NCBI GenBank assembly: GCA_007745635.1
Contig: CP036272.1
Coordinates: 2,599,266 to 2,663,265 of the forward strand
Reading direction: 5' to 3'
Origin: Stieleria bergensis
GTDB lineage: Bacteria; Planctomycetota; Planctomycetia; Pirellulales; Pirellulaceae
Length of the DNA stretch: 64,000 nt
The position numbers and the translations under genes were made by a program. The notes beneath the pieces were generated by a model. It was not told the DNA's origin, made no database searches, and saw only the letters and a list, made by a program, of their open reading frames with translations. Within the stretch, counting starts at the first letter, position 1. Each line of letters begins with the position of its first letter. Positions 6,413 to 64,000 of the stretch are shown in pieces.

Positions 6413-6448
6413 GGTATTTCTCCGTTGGAGCATTGTGTGATTTCTGCG

Positions 6449-8221
6449 TTATTCGGTTCCGGCCCCCATGCGATCGACTTCATCCTCTCCGGGGAGGCCA
6501 AAGGAGATCAGGGAGCCCTTTAGTTGTTTTTTCAGGAAAAGCATGCTTCCGGTCCCGACATAGATTCGACCTCTTGAGATCGACGGCCCGCTCCACACCG
6601 TTCCGACGTGCACGTCTTTGACCATCTTGCCGGTCATCGCATCGACGACGACTAAACGCTCGCTGACGGTGCTGGTGAAGCAGGCGATGCCGCCAGCGTT
6701 CACGGCGATGCCTGAAGCGATTGGGTCACCGCCGTCGTAACCAGGCACTCGAACGCGCGGCCGCTCGTGACGCCAATGCTCCTCCGCAAGGTTGGCTGAC
6801 AGACAAACAACACGGCCGGCTTCCGGCCATCCTGGCGTGGTCGTTGTGCTGGTGAGCCAGTCGATACCGTTGGTGAAGACACGTTTCCCGTTGGTGGCAC
6901 AACCCGTCTGGATACCGCCAATCGTACTGGGTAACGCGATCATCCGCGGATGGCGTTTTGGATCCAGCGGGTACTTCGGCTTGCCCTTGTAGACTGGCGT
7001 GTTCCCAAGGATTCGCCCGTCTCCTGAGCCAAGCAGGTAGAAGCCTCCGTTCTTGCAGCCAACGCCAAGCACCGTCGCGGGCGATCCATCGGGTGCCGGT
7101 AGCGTATAGATCTTGGGCGTGTCACCAATCGAACAGTCTTTGTATGCCGCTGACGCCGGATCGTAGCCGGCCATTGTATGGTTGAAGACATCATTCTTGT
7201 TCAACTGAGTGACCCATTTCTCAGCGCCGGTCTTGACATCCACCGCGACAACGGCGGCAGAGTACTTGGTGTAGAGCCGAGGGTCGTCCTCGGTTGGTTC
7301 GCGCGGCGAATTGTGCACGTCCGTTCCGAAGAAAATCGTGCCCGTGGCAGCATCGAAGGACGGCGTGCACCAGACCGAACTCGTTGATGGTCCATAGTGG
7401 TAGGTGCGCGATCCCTTGACGTCGTCGATCGTGATCGGCTTGCTGAACTGACGAGGCTTCTCACCGACCTCGTACTTCCACACGACCTCACCGTCGTCCG
7501 GGTTGAAGGCGACGACGAAACCACGCCCTTGGCAGCACGGGTAGTTTGGATCGATCGGATGCGCATGCTCGTAACCGCCTCCACCGACGATGACTTTTCC
7601 GTCCGCGAGGATCGCCGACGCATTGAAAAGATTGGCGTGGTGATGATTTGGAAAACCTGGCGCTCGGGTGTCAACCTTCCACAGTTCCCGGCCCGTCAGC
7701 CGGTCGAGTGCATAAAAAACGCCAGCATTGCTGCCGATGTACACGGCTTTGTCCGTGACCAGTGGGGACGCTAGGAAGCCGGCGCCAGCATTGATCCGAT
7801 TGAGGCCGCCCTTTGGCAACTCGACCGTCGCCCCAACACCAGGACGGAACACCCAGGCCAGCTGCCCGTTCGGCTTGAGCTTATAGAAGGCCGGAAACGA
7901 TCCGGTGCCGAAGTAGACATGCCCGTTGACCACGGCCGGCGTTCCGTGGATCACGCCAACCTCCGCCGTCACTCCCTCCGCCGGAAACCGCCATTTTTCG
8001 ACTAGCTGCGGAGCAGACTTCGGCGTCAGTGTTTTCTCGTCAGCATTGTATCTCCATCCTTCTACGCCGTTGTTGTAGCTCTCCCAGTCGGCGTCGACCA
8101 CGGGCGGAACGGTCTGCCCCGCAGCCTTTGTTGCCAAGCCGATGAAGACCAGTGAGATGACTGCAAGCAGCAAAACGGATCGATGGATGTGCCATGATTG
8201 CGGATGGTCTATGGAATTCAT
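6449..8221 (-). CDS. PQQ-type beta-propeller dehydrogenase-like protein
   Basis: 590 residues from the ATG at 8221, chosen over an upstream in-frame start at 8314 because a signal peptide (SVLLLAVISLVFIGLATKAAG) follows it closely. The body consists of repeated PQQ/BamB-like propeller blades: VNGHVYFGTGSFPAFYKL, KAVYIGSNAGVFYALDRLTG, GTIFFGTDVHN, VVAVDVKTGAEKWV and RIYVGTGSML. PQQ enzymes oxidise alcohols or sugars, but many planctomycete members are non-enzymatic propellers, and the quinone-binding residues cannot be confirmed by eye. A cysteine pair (NYPCCQGRG) resembles the vicinal disulfide next to PQQ in alcohol dehydrogenases, which weakly favours a real dehydrogenase. It lies between the double sulfatase and the hydrolase. 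Confidence 0.78.
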   Translation of the reverse strand: MNSIDHPQSWHIHRSVLLLAVISLVFIGLATKAAGQTVPPVVDADWESYNNGVEGWRYNADEKTLTPKSAPQLVEKWRFPAEGVTAEVGVIHGTPAVVNGHVYFGTGSFPAFYKLKPNGQLAWVFRPGVGATVELPKGGLNRINAGAGFLASPLVTDKAVYIGSNAGVFYALDRLTGRELWKVDTRAPGFPNHHHANLFNASAILADGKVIVGGGGYEHAHPIDPNYPCCQGRGFVVAFNPDDGEVVWKYEVGEKPRQFSKPITIDDVKGSRTYHYGPSTSSVWCTPSFDAATGTIFFGTDVHNSPREPTEDDPRLYTKYSAAVVAVDVKTGAEKWVTQLNKNDVFNHTMAGYDPASAAYKDCSIGDTPKIYTLPAPDGSPATVLGVGCKNGGFYLLGSGDGRILGNTPVYKGKPKYPLDPKRHPRMIALPSTIGGIQTGCATNGKRVFTNGIDWLTSTTTTPGWPEAGRVVCLSANLAEEHWRHERPRVRVPGYDGGDPIASGIAVNAGGIACFTSTVSERLVVVDAMTGKMVKDVHVGTVWSGPSISRGRIYVGTGSMLFLKKQLKGSLISFGLPGEDEVDRMGAGTE

Positions 8222-8338
8222 TCCTAACGCCGATGGTGGGGTGTCTTTTGATGTGCTGTTAAATAGTGGGACGGTGGTGCAGGCGACTTTCCACGACGGT
8301 TCTTGAATCGGCAAGTGGATCCTTGTCTGGTGCGTCGG

Positions 8339-11300
8339 TCATTCCTTTTCTGCGCCTGCTGCCGCTTCGGCGACATGGTTGAGAATCTTGACGAACGAGG
8401 CTCCCGGGTTGGGCATGTCAGGATCGAGGCGGCGTTTTTCTTTCCAGAGCTGACCGACTCGGACGCGTTGTTCGGGTTTGAGCTCGGCCATGATGCGATC
8501 GACATAGCGCTGATGGTTGAATCCGTCATAGGCTTTGGGAAGAGAGTTTCTGTCGATGCGTGCCAGGAGCTTCGCGGTATCGGTGTCCGCTGCGCCGGGG
8601 GCAGGCCGTTGCGGTGGATTTTCTTGCGACTTCTTCGCAGCGGTCTGTGCCTCAGGTGCGGGCCATTGGGGAGCATCCGCCATGACGCTTCGGTAGATAG
8701 TCGCGGCTTGCTTTTTCAAGCGGGCGGCGAGTACGGGCCGCTCTTTCGCAATGTCGTTTTGCTGACCGAGATCTTTGGAGAGGTCATACAGTCCGACACG
8801 ACCAAGTCCACTCTTTTTCAGCTCCGGGATCCAGGACTCCTGGAAATAGAACAATCTCCGGTGTTGATCCCTTAGTCGATTGGCTTCGGGATTGGCGAAT
8901 CTTCCGTTGAACATTCGAGAGCGAAGATCCATTCCGCCCAGCTCTTTCTCAAGATCGTCGCCAAGGACTTCTTTGACTTGCTCCATGAGTCGATTGGCAG
9001 TTTTAAAGTCGATCGGCGATTTCGCAGTGCTGGAAGCGAAAAGTGTATGGTCACCCACTCTCATGACCATGTTTGTTCCAGCGATCCAAAACAGGGGCTG
9101 ATGCCTCTTGAAGGAACCGGAGCGAGTGAGCAACGGTGCGAGGTCGGAGCCGTCGAGATGCACGCCCTTGGGTTTGTCGATGCCGATCAGACCACACAGC
9201 GTGGGGAGAAGATCAACGACTCCAGCCGGTTCCTTCTCGACGCGTCCGCCAGGGATCCCGTCTTTCCAATAGAAGATGCCCGGAACGCGATGCCCGCCTT
9301 CGAAAAGTGCCCCCTTCTTGCCACGCAGTTCACCGTTTCGCTCTTGCAGGTAACTGCCGTTGTCGGAAGAGTAGATGATGATGGTGTTGTTTAGCTCACC
9401 GAGTTTTTCAAGCTTAGCGACGAGGCGTCCGATGGCTCGATCGGTATTGTCGATGGTGCCACTGTAGATTGCTTCCCGTTCGTTCAGCCCGCCATACTGT
9501 GAAACGATCTCGTCGGGCGCCGCGATCGGGTCATGGGGTTCATTGAACCAGAGATTAAGGAAGAAGGGTTCGTTGTCGGCGCGCTTTTGATCGAGCCAGG
9601 TAAGCGCCTCGTCGACCACGATCTGACAGGAATAGCCTTTGATGGTTCCAACTCGCTTTCCATTGCGCAGAAAGTTGGTCGGGTCTTTGTGGCTTGGCCC
9701 CGGGCCGTTGACGACGGCGAACCAGTCGTCAAAGCCGTGATCGGCCGGAGTGGGGTTCTCGCGATTCTGCACGGGCATGCCGAGGTGCCACTTACCGAAA
9801 TGAGCGGTGGCATAGCCGTTTTCCTTAAGCATTTCGGCGATCGTCGTTTCGCTCTCCAGGAGGTGCATCCGGTGAAAACGCTCGTCGAGGACGGAGTAGA
9901 CTCCGGTGCGGCAGTGTTGGCGGCCCGTCAGAAAGGTCGCCCGCGACGGAGAGCAGGTAGGCGCTCCCGAGTGGAAATCGGTGAAACGCACGCCACCGGC
10001 AGCCAACTGATCGAGGACAGGGGTCTTGACGGGACCGTCGTAGCAGCCGATGTCGCGGTAGCCAAGATCGTCAGCGTAGAGTGTGACGACATTGGGACGT
10101 TTCTTCGTTTGGTTCTTTGTCGACACATGTCCCCGATAGTGAGGCGCGTTCGTGGTGGGGAGCGATTGTTTTAATTCGGCCTTGGTCGAGAGGTACGACG
10201 GGTCATCAGCGAGGTTCTTGCGTTGAAGTGGATCGGCGTTGACGTCGTAAAGTTCTTCGCCACCGTCGCTGTAGTGGATGTAGTGAAACTCGCGTGAGCG
10301 AACAGCGTGGTTAGTGCCCAGCCAGTGGGGCGAGTGCGTGATGATTGCTGGATAAGGCCAATCAACGCTAGGGTCGTTGACAAGCGGTGCGAAGCTGCGA
10401 CCGTCGAGTTGTTCATTCTCCGGTAATCCGCATAAGTCGATTAATGTTGGATACAGATCGACCAGACTGACCGGGCTCTTGCAGATCAGACCATTGGCCG
10501 CAGTGCCGGTCGGCATTGTTCCCGGCGCAGCGATGAGAAGTGGTGTGCGCGTCGTCTGTTCCCAGAGCGCCGACTTAGCGATCTTCTTTTCGCCGACGTC
10601 GTAGCCGTGATCACCCCAAAGGACAACGATGGTGTTGTCGCGATAACGACTTTTTTCCAATGCGTCGAGAACATGACCGACGCAGGCATCAGCGAACGAG
10701 TCCGCGGCCAGGCAGCCCTGGACAGCTTCCTTCCATTTGCCGCTTTCACGAATGTGCTTGATGTGACGTTCGCCCATCCGCCGGCCAATCGCTGGAATGT
10801 CATCGAAATCGTCTGCCTTGTAGGGCGGAAGTTCGATGTCTTCGAGTGGATGCATGTCGAAGAATTTCTTTGGGGCATACCATGGCAGGTGAGGCAAGTA
10901 GATGCCACAGCCAAGGAAGAAGGGCTTGTCGTGATCACGCTGTAAAAACTGTGCGGCGCCTTCTGCGGTCTTCCAATCCGGATTGGCCTCGATCGCGTGA
11001 TCGGTCGGTCCCCAGTCAATCAGTCGGGCGAGGATGGGATTGGATTCGAACTTGGGGCGCAAGCCGTGCTTGTAGCGTTCGCTCTGAGCGGGCGGTAGGG
11101 TGCCCGTTCGCGTGGAATAAACATGATCCCAGGCCGCGGCATCGGAGAATTTTCCGTGCGTCTGATGGTACAGCTTGCCGCCGCCCCAGGCGACATAACC
11201 ATGCTTGCGGAAATATTGTGGGAGCGTCACCCAATCCTGGTACTGCGGCATCTCGCGAAACCAGTTCAGATTGCCGTAGATACCGGTTGTTGATGGTCTT

Positions 11301-13019: not shown

Positions 13020-13555
13020 TGTACTTCCCTTAAGCTGGTTTCCACGCACGAGCGGACTTGCTTCTTGAGCCGAAATAACGCCTTCCGCACCGCCTCAATC
13101 GTCATCCCGATTCGCTCGCCAATCTGCTGATAGCTCAGCTCGTCTGCGAACCGCGCTCGCAGCACGCCTTGGCCGCGCTCCGGCACCCGTTCCAAACAAC
13201 ACCGCAGTGCCTCTCGCCAAGACTCCACTTCGTCGTGTCGTCTGGCCGTTTGAAATTCATCGAAGGCGGCGTCAATCGCGTCGTCCAGCAGACGATCCGC
13301 CAGCGTTCGCTCTCGCTGCCGTCGTTGTTTGGCTCGCATCACTTCAATCCGCACGATTGAGCGGCACCAAGCGAGCATCGATGTCCCTTCCTGGAACTGG
13401 TCGTACTTCTTAACGACGACCAGCATTGCTTCCTGCACGACGTCGTCGGCAGTGGCGTAGTGACCGAGCAGTGAACGCGCGTAGGCGAGCAGTTCTGTGC
13501 GGCACTCCAATGCCGCTTTCAGCGCGCGGTATCTCTTGTCGTCAGCGTTATCCAT
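13016..13555 (-). CDS. ECF-type RNA polymerase sigma factor (planctomycete/Verrucomicrobia type)
   Basis: 179 residues, normal for an ECF sigma factor. Region 2 is visible as AYARSLLGHYATADDVVQEAM and MLAWCRSIVRIEVMRAKQRRQ; region 4 as LPERGQGVLRARFADELSYQQIGERIG-type helix-turn-helix (residues about 125-165) ending AVRKALFRLKKQVRSCVE. It directs RNA polymerase to a small regulon, presumably including its own locus. It is the first gene of the minus-strand array and is translationally coupled to the FecR-like regulator, so signal input is probably across the membrane. Confidence 0.9.
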   Translation of the reverse strand: MDNADDKRYRALKAALECRTELLAYARSLLGHYATADDVVQEAMLVVVKKYDQFQEGTSMLAWCRSIVRIEVMRAKQRRQRERTLADRLLDDAIDAAFDEFQTARRHDEVESWREALRCCLERVPERGQGVLRARFADELSYQQIGERIGMTIEAVRKALFRLKKQVRSCVETSLREVQ

Positions 13556-13873
13556 TCAAGTTGTGACCCGAAAGTCTTCTGCCAAGTTGTGGAAGCGTGT
13601 TGTTTCGAGCGGGCGCCGCAGAGATGTCGGCGCGTCGCGGCGGGTGGATTGGAAGAAACGTCGCCGGCCACCAACAATTGCATTTCGTTTTGGAGAAACC
13701 AGGCACAACGATCTTACGACGTCTATTTACCAGAGTTTCTTCGCAAGAATGGACAACCATTTGACGAGAATGGCAGGCTTTCCAGGACGTCTCGGACTAA
13801 GCGTCCACTGGCGGACTGACTTCATTGCGTTGTTCGGATTCGATCGATGCCGCCGCGCAAACGAATCACTCGA

Positions 13874-14075
13874 TTAGCGCGCGCCGCCACTTCGTCTTTC
13901 GTGAGTGATCAGGACAATGGTCTTCCCACCGGAAATCAGGGATTCAAAACATTCAAAGACTTTATCGGTGGTTTGTGAGTTCAGGTTTCCGGTCGCCTCA
14001 TCTGCGAGAACGAACGAAGGATATTCGACGAGGCTGCTGACCAGCGGGCAATTCTCGCACCTCGTGCGTTGGTGT
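13874..14075 (-). pseudogene. ABC transporter ATPase fragment (LolD/MacB-like), decayed
   Basis: On the minus strand a frame ending in TAA at 13874 reads LVEYPSFVLADEATGNLNSQ then GGKTIVLITHERRS. These are the Walker B, D-loop and H-loop of an exporter-type ATPase (normal form LLLADEPTGNLDS...THD). Upstream in another frame is ARIARWSAAS, the usual IARAL stretch after the signature motif, so there is a frameshift at about 14040. No Walker A or signature motif lies further upstream, and the frame stops soon after the H-loop. It is the tail of a dead gene. Confidence 0.7.
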
Positions 14076-14076
14076 C

Positions 14077-14099
14077 TTCGCCGATCACCGATCGGCGAA
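14077..14099. repeat. Perfect 10-bp inverted repeat
   Basis: TTCGCCGATC, three-base loop ACC, then GATCGGCGAA. It sits in the spacer beside the decayed ABC fragment. The plus-strand side is moderately T-rich, but no clean terminator tail is present, so its function is open. Confidence 0.55.
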
Positions 14100-14590
14100 T
14101 TTCCAGAGTTTTGTGTTTTTTTGCTATCTGACGTTGGTGATTCGGTATGGCGCGTGTACGGTTACCCTTGATCGGAAGTTGATTGAAGATCATATTTATT
14201 ACTACTTAAGTCACGAACGGACGAGAGTGATGGCCTGGGGCCGTGCACGTCGTGACGAGTGAAGCTTGTTGCCGCTGGCGAAATTCGCCGCTTACTGCAG
14301 TCCAACTGTCTCTAGACGAACAGGGCCGCAGCCGCGTCGCACGGAAGACGCATCTATTCTCGTGACATTCTTGTTCGTCACGAGTCTCAGCCACCATATC
14401 GGGCCTGCAGGCGACTGAATTCGCCTTTGCATTGGTTTTAGAAGGCCCATCAAACAATAGATCCAAGCGATTGTGAAGATCGCAGGTCCTCTATTTCGCT
14501 TTGGCGTGGCGATTCCCAAACGCAACTGAATCGATCGCATGAGGTTCAGACCCTACAAATTACATCAAACTTTTAGACCGAGTTGTCTAC

Positions 14591-15907
14591 GTGGAATCCT
14601 TTCAGAACCTTGACTTGTTCGCTCCGCTGGGGAAAGCCCTTGCGGAACTGGACTACCAAACTCCCACCCCGATTCAAGCCAAAACGATCCCGCCAGCGAT
14701 GGATGGCCTGGATATTCTCGGCTGTGCCAAAACGGGGACTGGGAAGACAGCCGCGTTTGCGTTGCCCGTTCTGGACTTCATTGGCAATGAACGGCCCAAG
14801 TGTTCGCCAAAGTTTCCAGCGGCACTCGTGCTGGCACCCACTCGCGAATTGGCAAGCCAAATCAGCGCGAACTTTGCTGAGTACGGAAAGCACATGCGTT
14901 TTCGTCAAGCAACCGTGTATGGCGGTGTTGGCAAAGCGAAGCAAGTTTCGGCGCTCCGCGCCGGCGTAGACGTGCTGATCGCCACACCGGGACGGCTGCT
15001 TGATCTGATGGATCAGGGCGATGTCAAGCTGGGCAAGGTTCAGATGTTCGTTCTGGACGAAGCTGATCGGATGCTCGACATGGGCTTCCGCCCTGCCCTG
15101 AAGAGAATCATTGCAGCATTGCCCGAAGAGCGTCAGTCGCTGTTCTTCTCAGCAACTCTGGCACCTGGAATTCGAAAGCTTGCCGCTGAATTGCTGTTCA
15201 ACCCGGTCTCGATCGATGTCAGTCCAAAGTCGACGGGTGTTGCCAAGATCGATCAGACGATTCGTATTGTTGATCGAAGCAAAAAATTCGATACGATCTG
15301 CACGGCACTTCGGGATGAAAAAGCCGAACGAGTGATCACGTTCACGCGGACCAAGCACGGTGCCAATGCTCTGGCAAAGAAGTTGGATCGGTCCGGTATC
15401 GGCGCTGTTGCAATTCATGGAAACAAGTCCCAGGCGGCGCGGGAAAAGGCGCTGCATGCCTTTCGCAACAACAAAGTCTCTGTGCTTGTCGCAACCGACG
15501 TTGCCGCACGTGGGATCGACATCGATGGTGTCACTCACGTCATCAACTACGACATGCCAGTTGATCCGGAAAGCTATGTGCATCGCGTCGGTCGGACCGG
15601 ACGAGCTGGGGCGTCGGGAATCGCAGTCTCCTATTGCACCTTGGACGAACGCGATAAACTGCTGGCAATCGAGGCGTTGATCGGCAAAGAATTAGCCATC
15701 ACGGATCCCGATTCGATCGGCTTTTCCAGGCACTCGAAATCAAACAACGCAGGCGGGAAATCAAACGGACCGCGCGGGAAGTCAAACGGCTCAGGCTCGA
15801 AATCAAGGTCCGGCGGCTTTTCCAATGGAAACAAAGGACGCGGGAAGTTCAAAAAGAACAAGAAGAAACGGCGACCCGAAGGTGCCTCCATGAACGGTCG
15901 TCCCTAA
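14591..15907 (+). CDS. DEAD-box ATP-dependent RNA helicase, RhlE-like
   Basis: 438 residues from a GTG at 14591. All helicase motifs are present: Q-motif (YQTPTPIQAKTIPPAMDG), Walker A AKTGTGKT, PTRELA, TPGR, DEAD (VLDEADRML), SAT, the ARGIDIDG and HRVGRTGRAG blocks. The C-terminal tail (about 375-438) is a low-complexity basic Gly/Ser/Asn/Lys region typical of RhlE-type proteins and likely to bind RNA. It unwinds RNA duplexes in ribosome assembly or mRNA decay. The next two genes are a small basic protein and a cold-shock protein on the same strand, pointing to a cold or RNA-structure response. A start a few codons away cannot be ruled out. Confidence 0.93.
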   Translation: MESFQNLDLFAPLGKALAELDYQTPTPIQAKTIPPAMDGLDILGCAKTGTGKTAAFALPVLDFIGNERPKCSPKFPAALVLAPTRELASQISANFAEYGKHMRFRQATVYGGVGKAKQVSALRAGVDVLIATPGRLLDLMDQGDVKLGKVQMFVLDEADRMLDMGFRPALKRIIAALPEERQSLFFSATLAPGIRKLAAELLFNPVSIDVSPKSTGVAKIDQTIRIVDRSKKFDTICTALRDEKAERVITFTRTKHGANALAKKLDRSGIGAVAIHGNKSQAAREKALHAFRNNKVSVLVATDVAARGIDIDGVTHVINYDMPVDPESYVHRVGRTGRAGASGIAVSYCTLDERDKLLAIEALIGKELAITDPDSIGFSRHSKSNNAGGKSNGPRGKSNGSGSKSRSGGFSNGNKGRGKFKKNKKKRRPEGASMNGRP

Positions 15908-28244: not shown

Positions 28245-29277
28245 CACCCTGTGAGCTAACCCAAGTAATCACCAGAGAGACCATCAGGAGTTTTAGCAAT
28301 CAATGGGTCATCCCGCGTTACCTTCAGGTTTGCTTTTTCGGTTCGCTGCCGAAGTTTCGATTCTTTGGGAATGTTGTTCCGCTTCGTGACAGGCTGTTGG
28401 CTTAGAGGCGTGAGTTTTACCGGGTTCCAGATGTCTTTCTGAGCAGACAGGGTTGGGCATCTTCGGAACCCAACGAGCGGTTGGAGGATTTTCGGTGATG
28501 CTTCACGTCTCGCCCGACGGCTAGGGTCCGTGAGGTCCGCTCCCCACTGTTATGGTGAATATCTGTACCGCTGGTGATATCGGGGCCGTTGCAGGAAAAA
28601 GTTTGCCACCGAGATGGCAGGCCGCCACCTTGTCGGATAACGGGGACGGGCTAAGCTGTGTTTGTAAACCGTGACGGAGTGCCCGTCATTTTGTATCTTT
28701 CTTCGGGGCATCGTTTTTTTCAGGATCAACGATCGCCTCCAGATACCCGTGGACTGATGCAGCGAGGCGTCGTCGGATGTAAATGTTCATAATTCTTGTT
28801 TTTTTTTGGTGTACTTGTCGCTTTTTGACGCGTTGTTCAGGCTAGGTGTTTCTGCAATGGACTTTAACATTTTTAATCGGGCGTTGATTGTGGAAGTGAA
28901 ATGATTGGGAAGAGACGCGTGGAGAAATTCGCGTGCAATCGATGCCTGGAAGTCCGCGAGTGAAGAAGGTGTGGCCACTTGATCTGAGATCAGAGCCGAT
29001 TGAGTCTGGCGATTTTGGAAACGCTAATTTCATTTGCTTGGCCAGTAGAAAGCGGCGACGGCGATGAGGAATGCTTCCATCCACCGAAATTAGCTAAAGT
29101 GCGGAGTACGCAATTTGTTTGTTCTGAATAGATGACTTATCGGCCGTGAATAGCAATCGCGCGAACCGCATCGACAGCATTTGAAACTTCACTTCCGGCT
29201 GGACGTCATTGCGAGTTTATTTTCTCGAGACATGTGCTTGCCTTAACCCCATACGCGTTTCTACGCACACGACAGCT
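28245..29277. other. Spacer downstream of the tandem repeat
   Basis: About 1 kb without a confident gene. TGACGG, loop, CCGTCA followed by TTTTGT at 28672-28694 is a weak plus-strand terminator candidate. A minus-strand frame at 28787-28978 (listed separately) has protein-like composition. Confidence 0.4.
28787..28978 (-). CDS. Possible small hypothetical protein
   Basis: A 63-residue frame from a GTG at 28978 reads SLADFQASIAREFLHASLP then a lysine-rich tail ending KKKQEL. The sequence has amphipathic, protein-like composition, unlike the surrounding spacer frames, and the frame is open 17 codons further upstream. No motif, no clear ribosome binding site and no conserved neighbour support it. 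It could be the tail of a decayed gene. Confidence 0.22.
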   Translation of the reverse strand: MATPSSLADFQASIAREFLHASLPNHFTSTINARLKMLKSIAETPSLNNASKSDKYTKKKQEL

Positions 29278-30225
29278 ATGACATCTATCATTCCAGCATC
29301 TCGCGTGACGCTACTGAGGCAAGTCGTTTGCCCACATTGTTGGCACGAGTTAGTTTCAGAAGATGCGCTTTGGGTTGCTGAGCACCCTGATTTAATTGGT
29401 GATTTAAAGCTGGGTGACTCCGCGCAGCTCAGGTTTTTACCTTCAAGATTCTCGATGGAGGGAGATGCGATCGATCCGGAAGGATATAGGTGCTCAAAGC
29501 TAGCGTGCCCCAACTGCCACCTTGAGATTCCCCGGCCTTTTTTTCAAGTTCCAGCAAGTTTCTTCTCGATTCTTGGAGCGCCTGCGTGTGGCAAGAGCTA
29601 CTTCTTGGCTTCCATGACTTGGAAATTGAGGCAGATACTGCCGAATTACTTTGGGGTTTCCGTCGGGGACGCAGACACCTCCGCTAACGCGAGGCTTCAT
29701 CAGTACGAAGAGCAACAGTTTCTCAATTCTGATCCTGACAAGTTGGTTGCGATTGCAAAGACGGAAACTCAGGGCGATCTGTATGATCAAGTCAACATGG
29801 GCGATCACACAGTGACGCTACCGCGCCCATTCATGTTCCATCTGCAGCCGACACAGGAGCATCGGAACCATCAACGTTCAAAGGATGTGTCACGTGTTGT
29901 CTCGCTCTATGACAACGCGGGAGAAAGCTTTCTTCCAGGGGCTGATAGTGTGTCTTCGCCGGTCACTAGGCACCTCGCTCACTCGACACGACTCTTCTTT
30001 TGCTTTGACCCTACTCAGGACCCTCGATTTCGCAAGGCGTGCAGAGGGAAGACTCATGACCCTCAAATGGAGCATCGGGCAAATCGCCTCGATCGAGAAT
30101 CGAATGTCCGTCAGGACACGATTCTTCTAGAAGCGATCCAGCGAGTTCGCCGTCATGTCTTGGTTCAACGGGAATTGGAATTTGCTAACCGGCGAGTAGT
30201 ACAGGATGGCGGCTTCCTGCCGTGA
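29278..30225 (+). CDS. Zinc-ribbon P-loop NTPase (double-GTPase-like), probably 3'-truncated
   Basis: 315 residues from the ATG at 29278; a GTG/ATG-type start 23 codons earlier is possible. An N-terminal zinc ribbon (VVCPHCWHEL ... LACPNCHLEIPRP) precedes a P-loop GAPACGKSYFLASM (about residue 108) and a Walker B-like VVSLYDNAGESFLPG (about 210). This order resembles the GTPase-like proteins (DO-GTPase families) found with VWA or TPR partners in bacterial conflict and signalling clusters. It keeps RLFFCFDPTQDPRF but lacks the later base-specificity (TKxD-like) part; the frame ends 166 bases before an IS3 transposase gene, with the final residues FANRRVVQDGGFLP looking unlike the domain. Insertion-linked truncation is inferred. 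Confidence 0.6.
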   Translation: MTSIIPASRVTLLRQVVCPHCWHELVSEDALWVAEHPDLIGDLKLGDSAQLRFLPSRFSMEGDAIDPEGYRCSKLACPNCHLEIPRPFFQVPASFFSILGAPACGKSYFLASMTWKLRQILPNYFGVSVGDADTSANARLHQYEEQQFLNSDPDKLVAIAKTETQGDLYDQVNMGDHTVTLPRPFMFHLQPTQEHRNHQRSKDVSRVVSLYDNAGESFLPGADSVSSPVTRHLAHSTRLFFCFDPTQDPRFRKACRGKTHDPQMEHRANRLDRESNVRQDTILLEAIQRVRRHVLVQRELEFANRRVVQDGGFLP

Positions 30226-30390
30226 AGATCAGGCATCCTGCCCGAAGGTTTTTCGCATTGTGGAAACATCGAAGGGAAGAGTAGCGACATCGTCTGACAC
30301 CGCTGCCCTTCGACGTTTCACTTGGCACGGCGCTCGGGTTGGTCCTCACCAGTGCCCTATCCTCCGACCAAGTTCTCTCAGTCTCTCACA

Positions 30391-31377
30391 TCAGCTCGCG
30401 ATTGCAAGTGATGCTTGCTCGCGACGGCGTGAACGAGCTTCTTCAAGCTTGCGATCACGCTCTGCATGGATCTCGCCGGACAGGCCATTCAAGCAGTCCG
30501 CTGGCGTGATGTAACCGATCCCGCTGTGCAAACGCGTCTCGTTGTAATGACACACATAAGCAGCTATTTGCTTGACCGCTTCGTCACGATCTCGCGGCGG
30601 ATTGGGACGAATGCACTCCGTCTTCAACGTCCCGTAAAATCGCTCCTGCTTTCCGTTGCTTTGCGGGTAGTAAGGACTCGTCGTCACATGCGTCAAACCG
30701 TTGAAGCGAACGAATGCTTTAAAGTCTTTCGCGATGTACTGCGGACCATTGTCGCTGATGATTCGGGGCTTCACACCGGGATGTTTTTCCAGCGCTGCTT
30801 GAATCACAATCTCAATATCCACTTCCGTCATCGACTCGCGAAGTTCATGGTGCACGATGTAACGACTGAAGCCATCGAGTACCGTGATCAAGTAAAAAAA
30901 CGTTCCACCAACGTTGATGTAAGAAACATCGGTATGCCAATGGCTATGCGGCTTTTTAGGCTGTTTGAAGCCTGTTCCTTTGAGCGACTTGGTCGCGGAT
31001 TTGCGGTCCAAACGCCCCGCTGCTTTGAGAACGCGATAAACCGTCGAAGGGCTCACCGCAACGATGTCATCGTCAAGCATCATGAAAGTCAATCGGCGAT
31101 AACCCTCCAGTGGATTCTTGTCATGGAACGCGACAATGGCTTGCCGCTCCCAATCCGCGAGCCACCAGTCGCGAGGGATCTTTCCGTTGTGGTCATTGAC
31201 CATTCCGTAGCGTTTCTTCCAGGTGTGGAACTTGTTGGCCGCCAAGCCAAGCCAAGCCACAGCAGCAGTTGCTTTGCAGGCAGCTCAGTTTGTTTCGTCC
31301 AATGGTTGATGTAATCGACGATTTGGTCTCGTGTATCGTGAGGAACCCAGCGACCGGTTAGAGCTCCCCATTTTCTT
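30391..31377 (-). pseudogene. IS3 transposase orfB, frameshifted by a 5-bp duplication
   Basis: The catalytic DDE integrase region is intact: HTDVSYINVGGT, IISDNGPQYIAKDFKAF and YPQSNGKQERFYGTLKTE. In IS3 elements orfB is made by a -1 slip on orfA; here AAAAAAAG at 31375-31382 gives a fusion reading RKWGALTGRWVPHDTRDQ. However the fused frame is lost at 31242-31256, where the 5-base unit GCCAA occurs three times; two units would join the upstream frame (LLLWLGLAANKF) to the rest of the transposase. The extra unit looks like a slippage duplication that inactivates this copy. A shorter protein from a GTG at 31260 could still be made but would lack its N-terminal region. Confidence 0.75.
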
Positions 31378-31672
31378 TTTTTGAGCGGATGTTCTCCTCC
31401 ATCAGCTCAGAGATGACTTCGTTCTTAGCGTCGAGTTTCTCACGCATCTTCTGGAGCTTGGCATCGTGCTTGGACGTTTCAGCCTTCGTCGATCGCGGCG
31501 ACTCAAAAGAGCGTTCAGCCTGTTGAAGCACGGAATTGATCCAGTTGTGGATCATCGTTGGCTGGACGTGCATCTCGTCAGCGATCTGCGAGACAGGAAT
31601 TTGGTCTTTAAGATGCCTGCGAACCGCATCAGCCTTCTGTGAAGCGGTGAAAGATCGTCGTTTTTTTGTCAT
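31358..31672 (-). CDS. IS3-family transposase orfA (helix-turn-helix)
   Basis: 104 residues: MTKKRRSFTASQKADAVRRH, then an IADEMHVQPTMIHNWIN helix-turn-helix and a leucine-rich coiled coil ending ENIRSKKENGEL. It binds the element ends. The final codons TCA AAA AAA GAA form an A-rich slippery site for programmed -1 frameshifting into orfB. AGGAG lies seven bases before the ATG at 31672. The downstream orfB of this copy is broken, so the product would be orfA alone. Confidence 0.85.
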   Translation of the reverse strand: MTKKRRSFTASQKADAVRRHLKDQIPVSQIADEMHVQPTMIHNWINSVLQQAERSFESPRSTKAETSKHDAKLQKMREKLDAKNEVISELMEENIRSKKENGEL

Positions 31673-31734
31673 CAGAATTCTCCTCGGGGGGTGAGATTAA
31701 TTCACCGGAGGCAAAATTCCAATTCCATGAGAGG

Positions 31735-31977
31735 CAAGACAGTATCGGGTGTAAAGAGTGTGCCAATCAACTGCAGTTGCTTGCGTCCTAGCACCTTGCC
31801 TTTCACCGCCAGTCGGCGACGCTGATCGTCGCTAAGCAGAATTCATTTTTTGCCAAGCCTCTCTTTGAGAATATCGTTTTCGGTGCGCAAGTAATCGATT
31901 GTTTCTTGCTGTTGCCGATTTACCCAGCCAGCAAGCAAAATGGCAATTAGCTGCCAAGGTTGCAGAACAAACTTCAT
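31735..31977 (-). pseudogene. Integrase-core transposase N-terminal fragment with in-frame stop
   Basis: From the ATG at 31977 the minus strand reads PWQLIAILLAGWVNRQQQET, then TENDILKERLGKK, a TGA, and in the same frame [20 protein letters not shown] and [10 protein letters not shown]. This is the start of a common planctomycete integrase-type transposase in which the lysine pair is followed by arginine; CGA to TGA explains the stop. Homology ends at about 31735, close to the IS3 end at 31704. Confidence 0.6.
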
Positions 31978-58200: not shown

Positions 58201-59682
58201 GTTTAGTCCTCGCCCTTCTGCTACCGCCCCACGCCAAATCCAACGCAGATTTCTTTTTTTTATCTGTTTAATTTTCTTCTTCCGAGTGCCGTCACGCAGT
58301 ATCGCAACAAGAGCCCCGCTTAACAAAGTCCGAAATCGCAAATGCACGCGACCGATTTGGAGGACGGCTATCCCAAGACGATCGAAACGTTCGTCGTGCA
58401 AACGACGCAATGTCCGAGGTCCCGGATCTGGAGAACTCATCGGCACCCAATCTCACGAAATGATCAGGCTTGATTCGGGCGTCTTGGTGTTCTGCATCTG
58501 CAACGATTGCCTCCATTTGCGTTTGAAGCTGTGGGCTGGACCGTCCGAAACGCGTCGACACCAACGCTGAAAACCAGGCTGCTGATTGCAACGACCGCTG
58601 GCCCATTGGAATTTGAATCGGGTACACCGGAAACGTACGTCGGACGTCCGCCCGGCGCCGACAATCACTCGACGAACCAAGCATTGCCCCGCAGGCACGG
58701 AGCCGAGATTTTCCTGAATTCAATCCACTCGCCGAGCCGCTGAATTTCAATCTTCTTCGCAACGCAATTTTTCCGGGGTCCGCTTCGTCATCGACCATAC
58801 CAATGTAAAACGAAACGCGTCATGCAGGATCCAGGACCAGCGGGCGGCGGCGCTTGGTGTCGCCCGTTAGGGACTGAGCAAATCTTGCTGACTAGCGAAC
58901 AATCTGCAGTGACTTTCCCAAAGGAGTTGTGAGAGCGTCTGGGCGGCGCGCACATTTTGTGTTCATGTGTCATTCATTATCGATGCGTTAAACACAGGGC
59001 TGCATCAACAAATAGCATCTGATTGGAAAGGGAGCCTACTCGCCGCGACATGAAAAAGACTGGTGACCGACAACAGGGTAGAGCATGCTCCGGTTGCGAC
59101 AGGCCGAACGTTTCTCTTGTCCCCGATGCCGCTCCCGTTGGTTCTTCGCCTATCGGATCACGCAATGCATTTGATCTCGCGTGTGTCGTTTCAGAGGCCA
59201 GAGCCTGAGGGATCGGGTTCAGCGGATGCCCTGAATCGTTTTTTGCAGGAGAGGTTTCCAGCGGAACGCAGTGCCTGCCGCCGACGCTAGATTACCGACC
59301 AACGCAAGTCTGTACCGCGACAGCCACTTCGCCGTCCAGAAACTCACTAGAAAACTTGCTTCGGCGACAGCCTGAGCAAGAATAGTCACTCTGTCGTAGA
59401 TAGTGTCTCGGGGAAGAACATCGATAAAATCGGTGTCACGACCGAATAAGCCCTAACAAACGCATACCCAAGCAAAAAGTTCCAGAACCCCTGTCTGGTT
59501 TGCAACATGAAACTTGCCGAGGGGCCTGCAAAAGATTAAAATCGTTGATGAGTTGGCACCCTCCGACAAACAAAAACGTCCCAGAAGGCAAATTCGGACA
59601 TCAGCGATTCTTTCGCACAACTTTCAACGGTGATTCGGACACGTCGAGTCGGCTTGTGAACTTTGCGCAAACAAGGAACCCC
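58201..59682. other. 1.5-kb spacer upstream of the sigma factor, no gene seen
   Basis: Divergent region between the sigma factor (minus) and the SHD1-type gene (plus). Several frames stay open for 60-170 codons on the minus strand but have compositional, not protein-like, sequence and no motifs. An upstream in-frame extension of the next gene starts at 59500 but lacks a signal peptide. Promoters presumably lie here. Confidence 0.45.
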
Positions 59683-60462
59683 ATGCGATCTTTTATCCAC
59701 ATCTGCCAATCGCTGGCAATTTTCTTGCTGCCATGCACTGCACTCGCGGAGTGGCAGACTTTCAAAAGCAAAGCGGGAACCGAAGTCCGAGCAGAGATCG
59801 TCGGCGTCACCTTTCTCGGCAAACTGAGACTTCGGACAGTTTCCGAGACCATTGAAGTCGACATCGACCAACTGGATCTCGATAGCCAGCGGCAGGCGCT
59901 CTTAGACCTACACGCGATGATCCCTCAGACAGTTGCAAACGGGGAGAAACCTGTCAAGAAACGGAAACTGTCGCCAGAGGACGAATTGAGCCGGGCGTGG
60001 AATGCCTACAGACGGAACCTGACGAACGAGCTAACGGATTCTTGTGGGCAACTCCGCCGCTTCGTTTTGAAAATCAAAGATCCTGCCAATAAGCGTACTG
60101 CACTCCTGTATATGGAGAGAATCAACAGTGAAATGATCACACGACCGGGCTCTTGCTTGTCGCTCACAGATACAATCAGCGACTACTTGCGTGACCCGGA
60201 GTCAGCAAAGGTTGTGGTGCGGTTTAAAGCCCTGCTTTCGCTGACGGAATCCACCCAGGATAGATTCGATAAAATCACGGCGGACAGCCTGATCAGTAAG
60301 GCAAAGAACCGTGATTACGCGCGGTACCTGGCCTTAATCCAGAGTGTCAAACGAGAAGCGTCATCGCTTAGCCTGGACGCAATGGAAGAGGACGTCGGAG
60401 CACTGGAGTCGGCGTTCTTGGCACTCTACAACGCTTGGATCGGTGGGAATGATCAAAACTAG
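59683..60462 (+). CDS. Secreted SHD1-type domain protein, hypothetical
   Basis: 259 residues from the ATG at 59683, with AAGGA eight bases upstream and a signal peptide following (RSFIHICQSLAIFLLPCTAL, cleavage near ALAEW). The mature N-terminus, EWQTFKSKAGTEVRAEIVGV then GKLRLRTVSETIEVDIDQL, has the pattern of the SLA1-homology domain 1 (SHD1) common in secreted planctomycete proteins: a W, two short strands, and a vpl/IDQL end. Residues about 95-259 are helical and charged, with no recognised fold (ELSRAWNAYRRNLTNELTDS). Function unknown; likely binds a partner outside the membrane. It stands alone between spacers. Confidence 0.6.
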   Translation: MRSFIHICQSLAIFLLPCTALAEWQTFKSKAGTEVRAEIVGVTFLGKLRLRTVSETIEVDIDQLDLDSQRQALLDLHAMIPQTVANGEKPVKKRKLSPEDELSRAWNAYRRNLTNELTDSCGQLRRFVLKIKDPANKRTALLYMERINSEMITRPGSCLSLTDTISDYLRDPESAKVVVRFKALLSLTESTQDRFDKITADSLISKAKNRDYARYLALIQSVKREASSLSLDAMEEDVGALESAFLALYNAWIGGNDQN

Positions 60463-61518: not shown

Positions 61519-62358
61519 CTAGTTACCGGTGACGATTTTGGCCGTGGTAAAGACACCATGGCCATTATCTCTTGCAAGAGTCTCGAGCGTTTGCATGTCC
61601 TCGCTGAGCCCAATGGTGTGAATCCTCGTCAGCTTTGGCCGACTCCGATTGTAACTCGTAATTTGTTCAGTTTCGCGAGAATCAAATTCGCCATCAGTGA
61701 GGATGACCACGCAATCCGGGGAGAGATCCAAAGCAATTTTAACGGCTCCCAAAGGAGAGGTGCCTCCGCCTGGAGTGACACGATCTAGCGACCTCTTGGT
61801 TCGTTGCTTAACTGAATCGCTCGCTGAAACAAGACTTGGTTGCGTGATCTCATACGCACTTGTGTCAAACATCAACACTGCAAACATCTGCTGCGAATCC
61901 AAGGCGTCGATGGAGTCTTTCAGCGCTTTCAAAACACTCTGAAACCGGGAAAGAGACATACTCCCCGATTTGTCGATCACATAAACAACAGACCCCATTT
62001 CTTCACTTACTCGAAGCGGGTTGCCAACTCCTTCACAAAGCGGGACAGGATTAGTGTCAAACTCGATCAACCGTGAAGGCTTGGAAGGCTTCGTCCGACT
62101 GGTTGATCGTAATCGGTCGCCCCTGTCAGATTGGGTGTTTCCGGAGTGCACACCTGCCCCTTCGCCCTCGCGGCCTCGCCCATTTCCTAAGAGCCCTCTC
62201 GATTTTCCAACAAGGATCGCAGTGAAAATGATCAAGAGTGCCAAAGCAGATATCGCAAGTCCAATCCAGTACCAGTAGGCCTCCCGTTCCCGTGAAGTCC
62301 GCTCAACAAGCGGAGGTCCTTCGCGATACAGCGGTGGCGGGCCAGACTGCCTATTCAT
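61519..62358 (-). CDS. Membrane-anchored von Willebrand factor A (VWA) domain protein
   Basis: 279 residues. A short cytoplasmic N-terminus (NRQSGPPPLYREGPPLVERT) precedes one membrane segment (about 31-50, IGLAISALALLIIFTAILVG), a Gly/Arg-rich linker, and a VWA domain (about 120-279) with a complete MIDAS: SVVYVIDKSGSMSLSRF (DxSxS), the threonine in GGGTSPLGAVKIAL, and VVILTDGEFDSRE. It probably binds a metal and a partner outside or at the membrane. Ends VFTTAKIVTGN. It is the last gene of a minus-strand cluster with two coiled-coil membrane proteins upstream, separated from them by about 110 bases. Similar VWA proteins act as chaperone-like or sensor parts of ATPase or motor systems. Confidence 0.82.
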   Translation of the reverse strand: MNRQSGPPPLYREGPPLVERTSREREAYWYWIGLAISALALLIIFTAILVGKSRGLLGNGRGREGEGAGVHSGNTQSDRGDRLRSTSRTKPSKPSRLIEFDTNPVPLCEGVGNPLRVSEEMGSVVYVIDKSGSMSLSRFQSVLKALKDSIDALDSQQMFAVLMFDTSAYEITQPSLVSASDSVKQRTKRSLDRVTPGGGTSPLGAVKIALDLSPDCVVILTDGEFDSRETEQITSYNRSRPKLTRIHTIGLSEDMQTLETLARDNGHGVFTTAKIVTGN

Positions 62359-62467
62359 TCGATATCATCTCCGAAGAACAAATATTTAAGTGGTCTCGGC
62401 CTTCTCTCCATTGACGCCCATTATCGAATGCAGTCGCATCAAAGAGATTCTCGTGGACCTGACGCCA

Positions 62468-63373
62468 CTATTGAACCATTTGCGTTCCTGAACCGCGACT
62501 CAACGTCAGAGGCTGATCCTTTTCCATTAGCCAAAGTTGGTAAGAGACACCTTTTTCAATCAACAGCCCCCTCAAGATGTGGAAATCTGCATATGAGTTT
62601 GGCCAGATAGCAATCGTCAAGATTTTTCGGCTACTCGCAATATCGCCGAGTAGTTTCTGGAATTCTGGGTTTTCCTGCAAACGTGCCAGTTCCCAACCTT
62701 CGCCTACTATCGGCTCGACGCCCCAACTTCCTGAATCCTGCTGGGTGAAGCGAATCTGACCGGTACTTGAAACCCCCGAAAAAAGTGCAATTGGCCCCGA
62801 AAAATAGCCATAGCTGCGGTCAACGAGTGCTAATTCCGACCCCGCGCGACTGCTTTGCACCTTTGGCAATTGCAGAGTCATCATTTTACTCTCAAACAAG
62901 GCGCTATTTCGCCTCTCAGCCGCTTTGTATCTTTTCATGGCAGCCGAATGCGAAGTCTGAACGTCGCGGTTTTCTTCTTTTTGCTTTGCGTTTCTGTCAA
63001 GCAAGTTAGCGAGTTGCTTTGCGACATCTGAACGAGTGGAGGAAACTTGCCGCAGAGTTTCTTCATATTCAGAAAGTTCATTGCGCAGATCGAGGTACTC
63101 TTGGTCATCACCGGTCGGTTCGGTCTCCGGTAATGCTTGCAGAGCCGCATGTAAGTTCGAAGACTCCGCCGAAAGAGAATCTAGCTTTGTCGTCAAATCT
63201 CGGAGTTCGTCAGAACTAGGGGCCCGCTCGGACGGATCATTGGTCTCGATGATCGAACGACTTTGAATCATGATTGCCAAGAGTATGGCAAGGAAAACAA
63301 TGCCACCGAACGTGTTGCAAATGGTATCAAGGAACAGATCGAAACTTGAACCGGAATCTTCCTTATTTCTCAT
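62468..63373 (-). CDS. TolR/MotB-like single-pass membrane coiled-coil protein
   Basis: 301 residues. Near the start FDLFLDTICNTFGGIVFLAI then LLAIMIQ is one membrane segment (about 11-36) with an aspartate just before it, as in proton-channel partner subunits (TolR, ExbD, MotB); the FLDxxCxxFG-type signature is common to a planctomycete family. A coiled coil follows (about 55-155), then a C-terminal domain (about 170-301) ending DFHILRGLLIEKGVSYQLWL. That C-terminal part resembles the end of the neighbouring protein (63370-64000), so the two are paralogues. Overlaps its upstream neighbour by 4 bases (ATGA). A MotA/TolQ-like partner would be expected upstream of the window edge; not seen here. 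Confidence 0.65.
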   Translation of the reverse strand: MRNKEDSGSSFDLFLDTICNTFGGIVFLAILLAIMIQSRSIIETNDPSERAPSSDELRDLTTKLDSLSAESSNLHAALQALPETEPTGDDQEYLDLRNELSEYEETLRQVSSTRSDVAKQLANLLDRNAKQKEENRDVQTSHSAAMKRYKAAERRNSALFESKMMTLQLPKVQSSRAGSELALVDRSYGYFSGPIALFSGVSSTGQIRFTQQDSGSWGVEPIVGEGWELARLQENPEFQKLLGDIASSRKILTIAIWPNSYADFHILRGLLIEKGVSYQLWLMEKDQPLTLSRGSGTQMVQ

Positions 63374-64000
63374 TTTAGGTCGGCTGCCTCGAATTCGAGG
63401 AGAACAGAATGCTGCGTCTCGACGACGGAATAGCCAAAGGATGCACGAGACTTTTTAAGCGAAGACTTGATCGCCCGAAACTCCGACGCCCCCCCTGGTT
63501 CGACCAACACGAGTACGTGGCGATCGTTTAATGGAGTTAACGCCAGCCAATCATCTACACGGTCTGCTCGATCCCCGCCGACGAAACTCTCCTGCGAACG
63601 TGTTAGGCTATCCTTGATCTTAATCGCGTCTCGTGACACTGTGATCAGAACGAGGAACCGACCATCCTCGAGCCGACTGCGATAGATCTCCGAACTGTCA
63701 CTTGAAAGCCGTTGGGAATGCGACTCAAATTCCTGTGACTCATTGTTAAGTTTGACGGTGTCCTGCTTTAGTGGACCAAGATCACTTGCCTGCGCCAACA
63801 GACCTTCAAATTCATGTTCGGTTTTACCTTGATGCTCGTTCAGGCGAGCTATCTCGGCATGAACCTGCTCTATTAGCCTCTTGGAGGACTGCACACTGTT
63901 CTTGAGAGTAGCGATGGTCTCCTCTCGATTAAATTGATTCACTTCACTGGAAGTCGCAAGTTGTTTGGAACGTGTTTCTAGCTTTTCTCTGAGATCCTGA
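63370..64000 (-). CDS. Coiled-coil paralogue of the TolR-like protein (5' end beyond window)
   Basis: Open to the window edge; a GTG at 63942 is only an internal candidate, since the frame continues upstream with coiled-coil sequence (DLREKLETRSKQLATSSEVN). The visible part is a long coiled coil followed by a domain with EIYRSRLEDGRFLVLITVSR and NDRHVLVLVEPGGASEFRAI then KKSRASFGYSVVETQHSVLL. The strand-helix-strand ending parallels that of the downstream gene (RKILTIAIWPNSYADFHILR). The membrane segment, if any, must lie beyond 64000. Stop overlaps the next start by 4 bases, so the two are made together, probably in equal amounts. Confidence 0.7.
   Translation of the reverse strand, partial: QDLREKLETRSKQLATSSEVNQFNREETIATLKNSVQSSKRLIEQVHAEIARLNEHQGKTEHEFEGLLAQASDLGPLKQDTVKLNNESQEFESHSQRLSSDSSEIYRSRLEDGRFLVLITVSRDAIKIKDSLTRSQESFVGGDRADRVDDWLALTPLNDRHVLVLVEPGGASEFRAIKSSLKKSRASFGYSVVETQHSVLLEFEAADLK

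Follow-up and report, generated by a model that had tools for sequence, protein, structure and literature searches.

The GAP1-N2 systems described in 2020 (Kaur et al. 2020, eLife 9:e52696, PMC7159879) combine, according to the available part of that paper, a DO-GTPase bearing zinc ribbons with a GAP1 protein, which is built of N2 and M domains and carries a transmembrane (TM) segment, and with variable further components; some planctomycete members include twin GYF and TM-rich proteins. MotA, ExbB, MotB and TolQ go unmentioned in the same part of its main text. A second group of gene clusters, from bacteria of the Planctomycetota-Verrucomicrobiota-Chlamydiota (PVC) group, encodes a TolQ-like protein together with paired TolR-like, TPR and vWA proteins (PMC12204202, Mol Biol Evol 2025). 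Here we describe an operon of Stieleria bergensis that resembles both. Its distal end lies at the right edge of our window, a stretch of 64,000 nucleotides (G000:C1:2599266-2663265, within a 7.1-Mb genome on a single contig), where three minus-strand genes (61519-64000) encode a von Willebrand factor A (VWA) protein and two coiled-coil proteins, A and B. An earlier note on this DNA had singled out these three genes, and the open reading frames (ORFs) bear it out, down to the 4-base overlap between two of them, B and A. While GAP1-N2 systems and TolQ-like/two TolR-like/vWA clusters are each known, their combination appears, from gene content, to be new. No publication linking GAP1 or DO-GTPase to a MotA/TolQ channel was found in the literature searched, which comprised main texts without supplements and few subscription papers, and the available part of PMC12505986 does not mention a GTPase.

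The three window genes appear to form the distal end of one conserved operon with the order DO-GTPase, GAP1, P967 (a 967-aa membrane protein), GYF-TM (a twin-GYF membrane protein), a MotA/TolQ/ExbB channel, B, A and a distal gene. Within the window, the VWA protein is encoded at 61519..62358 (279 aa), shaft protein A at 62468..63373 (301 aa) and shaft protein B from 63370 to 64000, continuing to G000:C1:2663465 (276 aa at full length), with its TM segment outside the window; A and B both occupy the TolR position. The earlier note had placed the remaining genes past the edge and proposed looking there for a channel, ATPase or nuclease gene. The DNA to the right (L007, G000:C1:2655000-2674999; window position = L007 position + 55734) indeed holds, all on the minus strand, the channel gene (8467-9360; 297 aa) immediately upstream of B (7636-8466), then GYF-TM (9357-10289), P967 (10286-13189), GAP1 (13186-15885) and a 3' remnant of the GTPase gene (15882 to ~16352); on the same scale A and the VWA gene occupy 6734-7639 and 5785-6624. 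The core genes overlap by 4 bases or abut in succession, and 109 bases separate A from the VWA gene.

With GAP1-N2 systems the operon shares both domains of GAP1 (GAP1-N2, PF20013, E 8.7e-28; GAP1-M, PF20014, E 4.9e-12), a TM segment in that protein, twin GYF domains with a TM-rich region (PF14237 matches two stretches of GYF-TM at E 3.5e-22, and its C-terminal part is hydrophobic) and, beside GAP1, a DO-GTPase with N-terminal zinc ribbons, the last as read from orthologues, the gene being split in S. bergensis itself. In an alignment of 15 GTPases, one of which is a fragment from the window, the CxxC cysteines, the GK of the P-loop and DNAG are invariant and TKxD is nearly so; PF19993 matches 11 of the 15 at E<=0.01. 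The operon proteins scanned, including 15 P967-type proteins, gave no FN3 match, and because the available part of PMC7159879 assigns an FNIII protein to GAP1-N2 systems, we regard the operon as a variant without FNIII. The DO-GTPase family has been predicted to act in membrane-related stress (PMC11237479, as far as its available part goes). P967 itself matches no Pfam family above cut-off, in the operon protein or in the 15 P967-type proteins scanned; a TPR identity was dropped, TPR_21 having appeared in one of the 15 only, and below cut-off. Hydropathy scans place one TM segment near residue 350 in most P967 relatives (none was detected in L122) and one near residues 315-390 in most GAP1 relatives, with two hydrophobic stretches in GAP1 of L108, L112, L113 and L118. 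With one crossing each, P967 and GAP1 should both have a cytoplasmic and a periplasmic part, in a presumed orientation.

Downstream of these genes, the operon shares with the 5:2 motors of the MotA/TolQ/ExbB kind an A subunit of family PF01618 with polar ring residues (channel, E 1.6e-10) and single-TM B subunits with a conserved aspartate. Thr206 and Thr248 are invariant in all 112 rows of channel relatives at E<=1e-10, and Thr247 is kept in 111; the first two we take to be the equivalents of the ring threonines of ExbB and TolQ. The TolR-like membrane segment with an aspartate that the earlier note had seen in one coiled-coil protein is present in both, each having one N-terminal helix with a conserved Asp, and by sequence A and B look like B-type partners of the channel. 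Protein A consists of a single TM with Asp16, a coiled coil and a C-terminal alpha/beta domain; all 19 aligned sequences retain the second Asp of FDLFLDTICNTFGG, as do 108 of 121 rows of relatives, the other 13 being gapped there. In B (single TM with FxFQD and its Asp18, 114-residue helix, C-terminal alpha/beta domain), the counterpart is kept in 18/19 sequences and 111 of 113 rows, with 2 gapped. No other residue occupies either position among these relatives. Rows are stretches at E<=1e-10, sometimes two per locus and with duplicate loci removed, and more weakly matching relatives, among them B of L046 and L047, are not included.

The earlier note had also read A and B as paralogues with a common C-terminal fold. 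Profile alignment supports this (hhalign probability 99.3% over 263 columns, 19 A and 19 B sequences); the coiled coil inflates that value, and the N-terminal and C-terminal parts align as well. Structure models show a similar order of elements in both: in B (mean pLDDT 82.9), helix 14-45 and helix 54-167 are followed by strands and helices, and in A (mean pLDDT 75.1) a TM helix and a long helix lead to a small C-terminal alpha/beta domain. The pTM values of the two models are 0.41 and 0.40. The 114-residue helix of B, taken at 0.15 nm per residue, would be ~17 nm long and, as modelled, could span much of the periplasm. A ends in VQ in 16/19 aligned sequences (the exceptions being L034, L046 and L047), which suggests a conserved C-terminal docking site.

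The VWA gene, the last of the S. bergensis operon, encodes a membrane protein with an intact metal ion-dependent adhesion site (MIDAS), in agreement with the earlier note: a single N-terminal hydrophobic stretch (TM at about residues 26-50) and a linker precede the VWA domain (residues 123-272; PF13768, E 1.6e-14), with the MIDAS motif DxSxS at residue 129. Together with the channel, A and B, it gives the operon features in common with the PVC clusters of PMC12204202, namely one TolQ-like protein, two different TolR-like proteins, a one-TM vWA protein and a PVC distribution. The main text on those clusters, however, contains neither a GTPase nor GYF, and their SHLS motif was not found in the operon; on this comparison of descriptions the two may or may not be one family.

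A first scan of genome contigs with protein A alone returned no relative. A scan of named genomes with the channel alignment gave at least 552 relatives among 591 stretches, and we took the best-scoring 80 as named loci, so that the counts below lean towards close kin. These best 80 are labelled Planctomycetota, Verrucomicrobiota, Lentisphaerota, Thermodesulfobacteriota and Nitrospirota, the nearest channel genes being from Pirellulaceae. GTPase and GAP1, counted anywhere in the locus on either strand and either side of the channel, are both present in 31 of the 35 named loci with at least 9 kb upstream of the channel, and P967 in 34 of them; the four misses for GTPase/GAP1 are L177, L182, L189 and L194, although L182 starts close to its GAP1 gene and its GTPase may lie off the stretch. 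A and B both occur near the channel gene in 67/70 named loci with at least 2.5 kb downstream (misses L146, L147 and L148). Within the phylum set, GTPase and GAP1 accompany the channel in 13/15 loci (misses L116 and L119); across 294 phylum genomes, the channel was found in 40 (E<=1e-20) and GAP1-N2 in 31, and the two lie no more than 15 kb apart on one contig in 15, as read by eye from two tables. Relatives of A occur in 22/98 related genomes, S. bergensis included; of 20 further loci, those with enough contig carry the operon itself or a version that lacks GTPase and GAP1. The same-family/order set was picked by similarity to protein A, and its 20/20 A/B pairing is by construction. Six loci stand in two sets (L030/L136, L031/L144, L039/L150, L042/L189, L043/L194 and L038/L203), each set being counted whole for gene content, while the second copies were removed from the distal-gene list below. 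Bins may hold foreign contigs, and lone loci of rare phyla, such as the Syntrophus-labelled L201, are weak evidence. As the gene set recurs across phyla, it is not a chance arrangement.

The distal position is exchangeable. We tallied 66 genes lying after A or between the channel and B (65 of 91 ORFs plus L033:12153-13313; Pfam, E<=1e-4); the 26 ORFs left out are mostly short or overlap core genes, with some of 175-230 aa and one of 644 aa. VWA_3 was matched in 15 of the 66, GYF_2 in 11, Trypsin_2 in 6, and SQHop_cyclase_C and SHD1 in 3 each, alongside single matches to Hsp70, FHA, PD40, a sulfatase and a transposase-nuclease; some of these genes are likely mere neighbours or spurious ORFs. 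DxSxS is found in 16 of 19 VWA candidates, the others being L034, which is cut by a contig end, and L149 and L109, which are perhaps misread. The earlier note had staked its case on the three window genes being conserved together and on a channel gene upstream: for A, B and the channel this holds, whereas the VWA protein is not a constant partner, and we dropped it as such.

Taken as a whole, the operon fairly probably encodes a proton-driven motor that is switched by a GTPase and has two unlike shaft proteins. Gene content and order, conservation, domain assignments and predicted topology bear on this directly, and from them we infer proton flow, stoichiometry, GTPase control and the physiological role. 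MotA-like subunits would form the ring of an inner-membrane motor of the MotA/TolQ/ExbB kind, whose axle would consist of one A and one B instead of a homodimer; the Asp residues of A and B would face the ring threonines and carry protons, and their coiled coil would transmit motion through the periplasm. The zinc-ribbon GTPase and GAP1 would serve as a nucleotide switch on the cytoplasmic side; GAP1 and P967, each crossing the membrane once, may relay its state to the motor, and the GYF domains would offer a docking point. A swappable output or adaptor would come from the last gene (VWA, trypsin, GYF-toroid, Hsp70 or beta-propeller in relatives), and the most likely role of the whole would be to exert force or conformational work on the outer envelope upon a cytoplasmic signal. 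The proton-driven complex of the earlier note is supported at the level of sequence. We advance a stricter version only tentatively, namely that the heterodimeric axle is obligate, that DO-GTPase/GAP1 turns on the MotA-type ring and that the shaft drives the exchangeable output protein. Were the motor GTPase-gated and its axle heterodimeric, ion-driven motors would have a new mode of control across PVC bacteria and perhaps further. GAP1-N2 GTPase systems would gain an output side and orphan TolQ-like channels bearing two TolR-position proteins a control side; if the link is real, the output of the GTPase switch becomes testable in the motor, and the paired paralogues of the axle make it possible to ask directly whether an ion-driven motor can work with an asymmetric B dimer.

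Several observations weigh against this reading. Switch and motor can occur apart, and neither strictly needs the other: a GTPase-GAP1-P967-GYF unit with no motor gene in the stretch fetched is present in 11 of 12 loci examined in the genus (L126 and L211-L220, but not L221), three genomes (G007, G008 and G010) have that unit without a channel of this family at E<=1e-30, and channel-A-B sets lack GTPase/GAP1 in 6 P967-bearing and 2 other loci of the 14 same-family/order loci. The S. bergensis operon has lost the integrity of its GTPase gene, which is full-length in relatives; a complete operon is present, for example, in Rhodopirellula solitaria CA85 (locus L131). The exception to the FxFQD Asp among the 19 aligned B sequences is the distant locus L046. 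Neither TolR/ExbD (PF02472) nor MotB/OmpA was matched by A (E<=1) or by full-length B (E<=0.1), a difference from known 5:2 motors; membership of A and B in the TolR/ExbD family was dropped, and because PF02472 does not match, their assignment as B subunits rests on position, the TM Asp and the channel partner. In the profile scans A and B reached no curated cut-off and their matches were coiled-coil-like; profiles of the channel, B, A and P967 searched against PDB sequences met only coiled-coil or chance matches, and Foldseek with either shaft model gave nothing at E<=0.001. Below that level, E. coli TolR (5by4) ranked third for A (E 0.21), and the C-terminal domain of B met RNase-H-like folds and ribosomal proteins (best E 3.1e-3); we draw nothing from either, and propose no nuclease activity for B because its conserved columns hold no acidic triad.

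The varying distal gene (VWA_3, GYF_2, Trypsin_2 and single Hsp70, FHA and PD40 matches among the 66) and the patchy occurrence of the fused operon, found in 4 of the 14 genomes of the genus (G000, G005, G011 and G013), would also fit an antiviral conflict system, in which GTPase/GAP1 senses infection and the motor, comparable to the 5:2 motor of Zorya, or the distal protein is the effector. For GAP1-N2 systems in general, a role in biological conflict has been predicted, with a core that stays the same and effectors that vary (PMC7159879, available part). However, the motor-less switch unit looks like a core trait of the genus, with a GAP1-N2 match in 14/14 genomes in addition to the loci above, an argument against a role in defence alone; labels in the channel tree group reasonably well by phylum, with 6 changes where the minimum is 4 and shuffling gives a mean of 15.7; and no nuclease or toxin domain was recognised in Pfam scans of the operon's own proteins. 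PADLOC families showed no visible enrichment in 95 flank proteins over 88 control proteins, in a weak test: each family among the matches listed had one member only, the proteins were chosen by hand from 142 flank and 95 control ORFs, ORFs of GC-rich bins may be spurious, and the control came partly from related motor loci. Nor did the eight operon proteins match any PADLOC model better than E 2.1e-5. That best value belongs to the channel against ZorA models, over 75 residues (the NCBIfam ZorA model scored 16 bits, its cut-off being 100); B matched ZorB at E 5.4e-4 amid coiled-coil matches of similar or better score, and no ZorC, ZorD or ZorE match was listed for the operon proteins. ZorAB also pairs a MotA-type channel with a TM-Asp partner, with a proposed link from ion flow to switch or effector (PMC11890865, available part), but the operon has a short 297-aa channel without the long tail, two different B-type proteins and, as the earlier note had remarked, no OmpA-type domain match in Pfam scans. 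Membership in Zorya, to which that note had seen a distant likeness, is not supported by these weak partial matches, and we dropped it. A defence role is possible, if weakly supported, and in our judgement unlikely.

Two further explanations we consider improbable, to a similar degree. One is a machine for surface motility or adhesion like Agl-Glt of Myxococcus, in which a Ras-like GTPase controls a TolQ-like channel with two TolR-like partners and a GYF protein. MglA is the GTPase of that gliding system, and no MglA- or MglB-type Pfam family was listed for the GTPase or GAP1 of the operon. The gene content is alike, with one channel, two B-type paralogues (as in AglR/AglQ/AglS) and a GYF-bearing membrane protein (PMC9389320 and PMC3169522, available parts), but AglQ and AglS match PF02472, as given in the available part of PMC3169522, and A and B do not. 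For the twin-GYF protein, the match to the GltJ model is confined to the GYF domain (44 bits, cut-off 450), and NCBIfam, a library whose Glt content was unchecked, gave no other Glt model for any of the eight operon proteins at E<=0.1; the operon also differs from AglRQS-Glt in its GTPase family and in having no Glt genes in sight. Alternatively, the VWA protein, with its TM, linker and globular domain, may be a TolA/TonB-like force transducer as predicted in PVC bacteria, and the GTPase-GAP1 genes an unrelated neighbour. The SHLS motif, searched as S-x3-H-x6-L-x3-S within a hydrophobic stretch, a spacing we take to be that of TonB, was found in 0/66 distal or inserted genes, 0/568 ORFs of 41 loci and 0/1701 ORFs of the 80 named loci, and membership in the SHLS-type vWA force transducers is not supported. 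The frequency of VWA_3 among distal genes compared with that of GTPase plus GAP1 at the channel also speaks against this explanation, together with the 4-base overlaps at the S. bergensis locus, and the rarity of a TPR match in P967 may point the same way.

The split of the DO-GTPase gene can be followed in detail. With a relative's GTPase as query, three places matched in the S. bergensis genome: a full-length paralogue (G000:C1:3251943-3253199), residues 10-297 on the plus strand inside the window (G000:C1:2628561-2629430) and residues 278-427 on the minus strand outside it (G000:C1:2670947-2671399). The paralogue belongs to a GTPase-GAP1-P967-GYF unit (L126 5875-13222, G000:C1:3251874-3259221) with no motor genes in 16 kb. 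The 5' two thirds of the operon's gene (window 29209..30155, plus strand, start codon uncertain) carry CPHC...CPNC cysteines, the P-loop GAPACGKS and DNAG, and are cut off by an insertion sequence (IS) copy with an integrase core at 30156..31743 on the minus strand, presumably of the IS3-like family. The 3' third (G000:C1:2670881-2671351, minus strand), which adjoins GAP1 and has no Pfam hit, is abutted by an inverted copy of this element (G000:C1:2671352-2672934). Both breaks in the GTPase gene thus abut an IS copy. The two copies, 99.6% identical over 1588 aligned columns, lie in opposite orientation ~42 kb apart, and the genome has nine near-full-length copies. GTCA is common to the two GTPase flanks, as expected for a target duplication, and the other two flanks differ. 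By sequence, IS insertion followed by a ~42 kb inversion between two copies explains the split gene; misassembly at the repeats might produce a false inversion but would not account for the insertion.

Other arrangements of the motor genes were seen among relatives. Eight genomes of the genus, judged by channel similarity, carry a P690-channel-B-A type without GTPase/GAP1 in the fetched stretch (loci L035, L038 and L040-L045), and like-sized neighbour genes suggest that many members of the genus have it at a fixed chromosomal site; its neighbours in L041 include genes for AstA, aldehyde dehydrogenase and AstB. L046 (12085-15452) and L047 (12097-15437) hold more distant channel-B-A sets, whose channel protein is longer (~450-460 aa). 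In L161 and L171 a second B, A, GTPase and GAP1 set stands right behind the first, apparently by tandem duplication of much of the operon. Within our window, a gene convergent to the operon (59500-60462) probably encodes a secreted protein with what looks by eye like an SHD1-type domain, and SHD1 is fused to trypsin in operon-adjacent genes of the relatives L028, L029 and L030.

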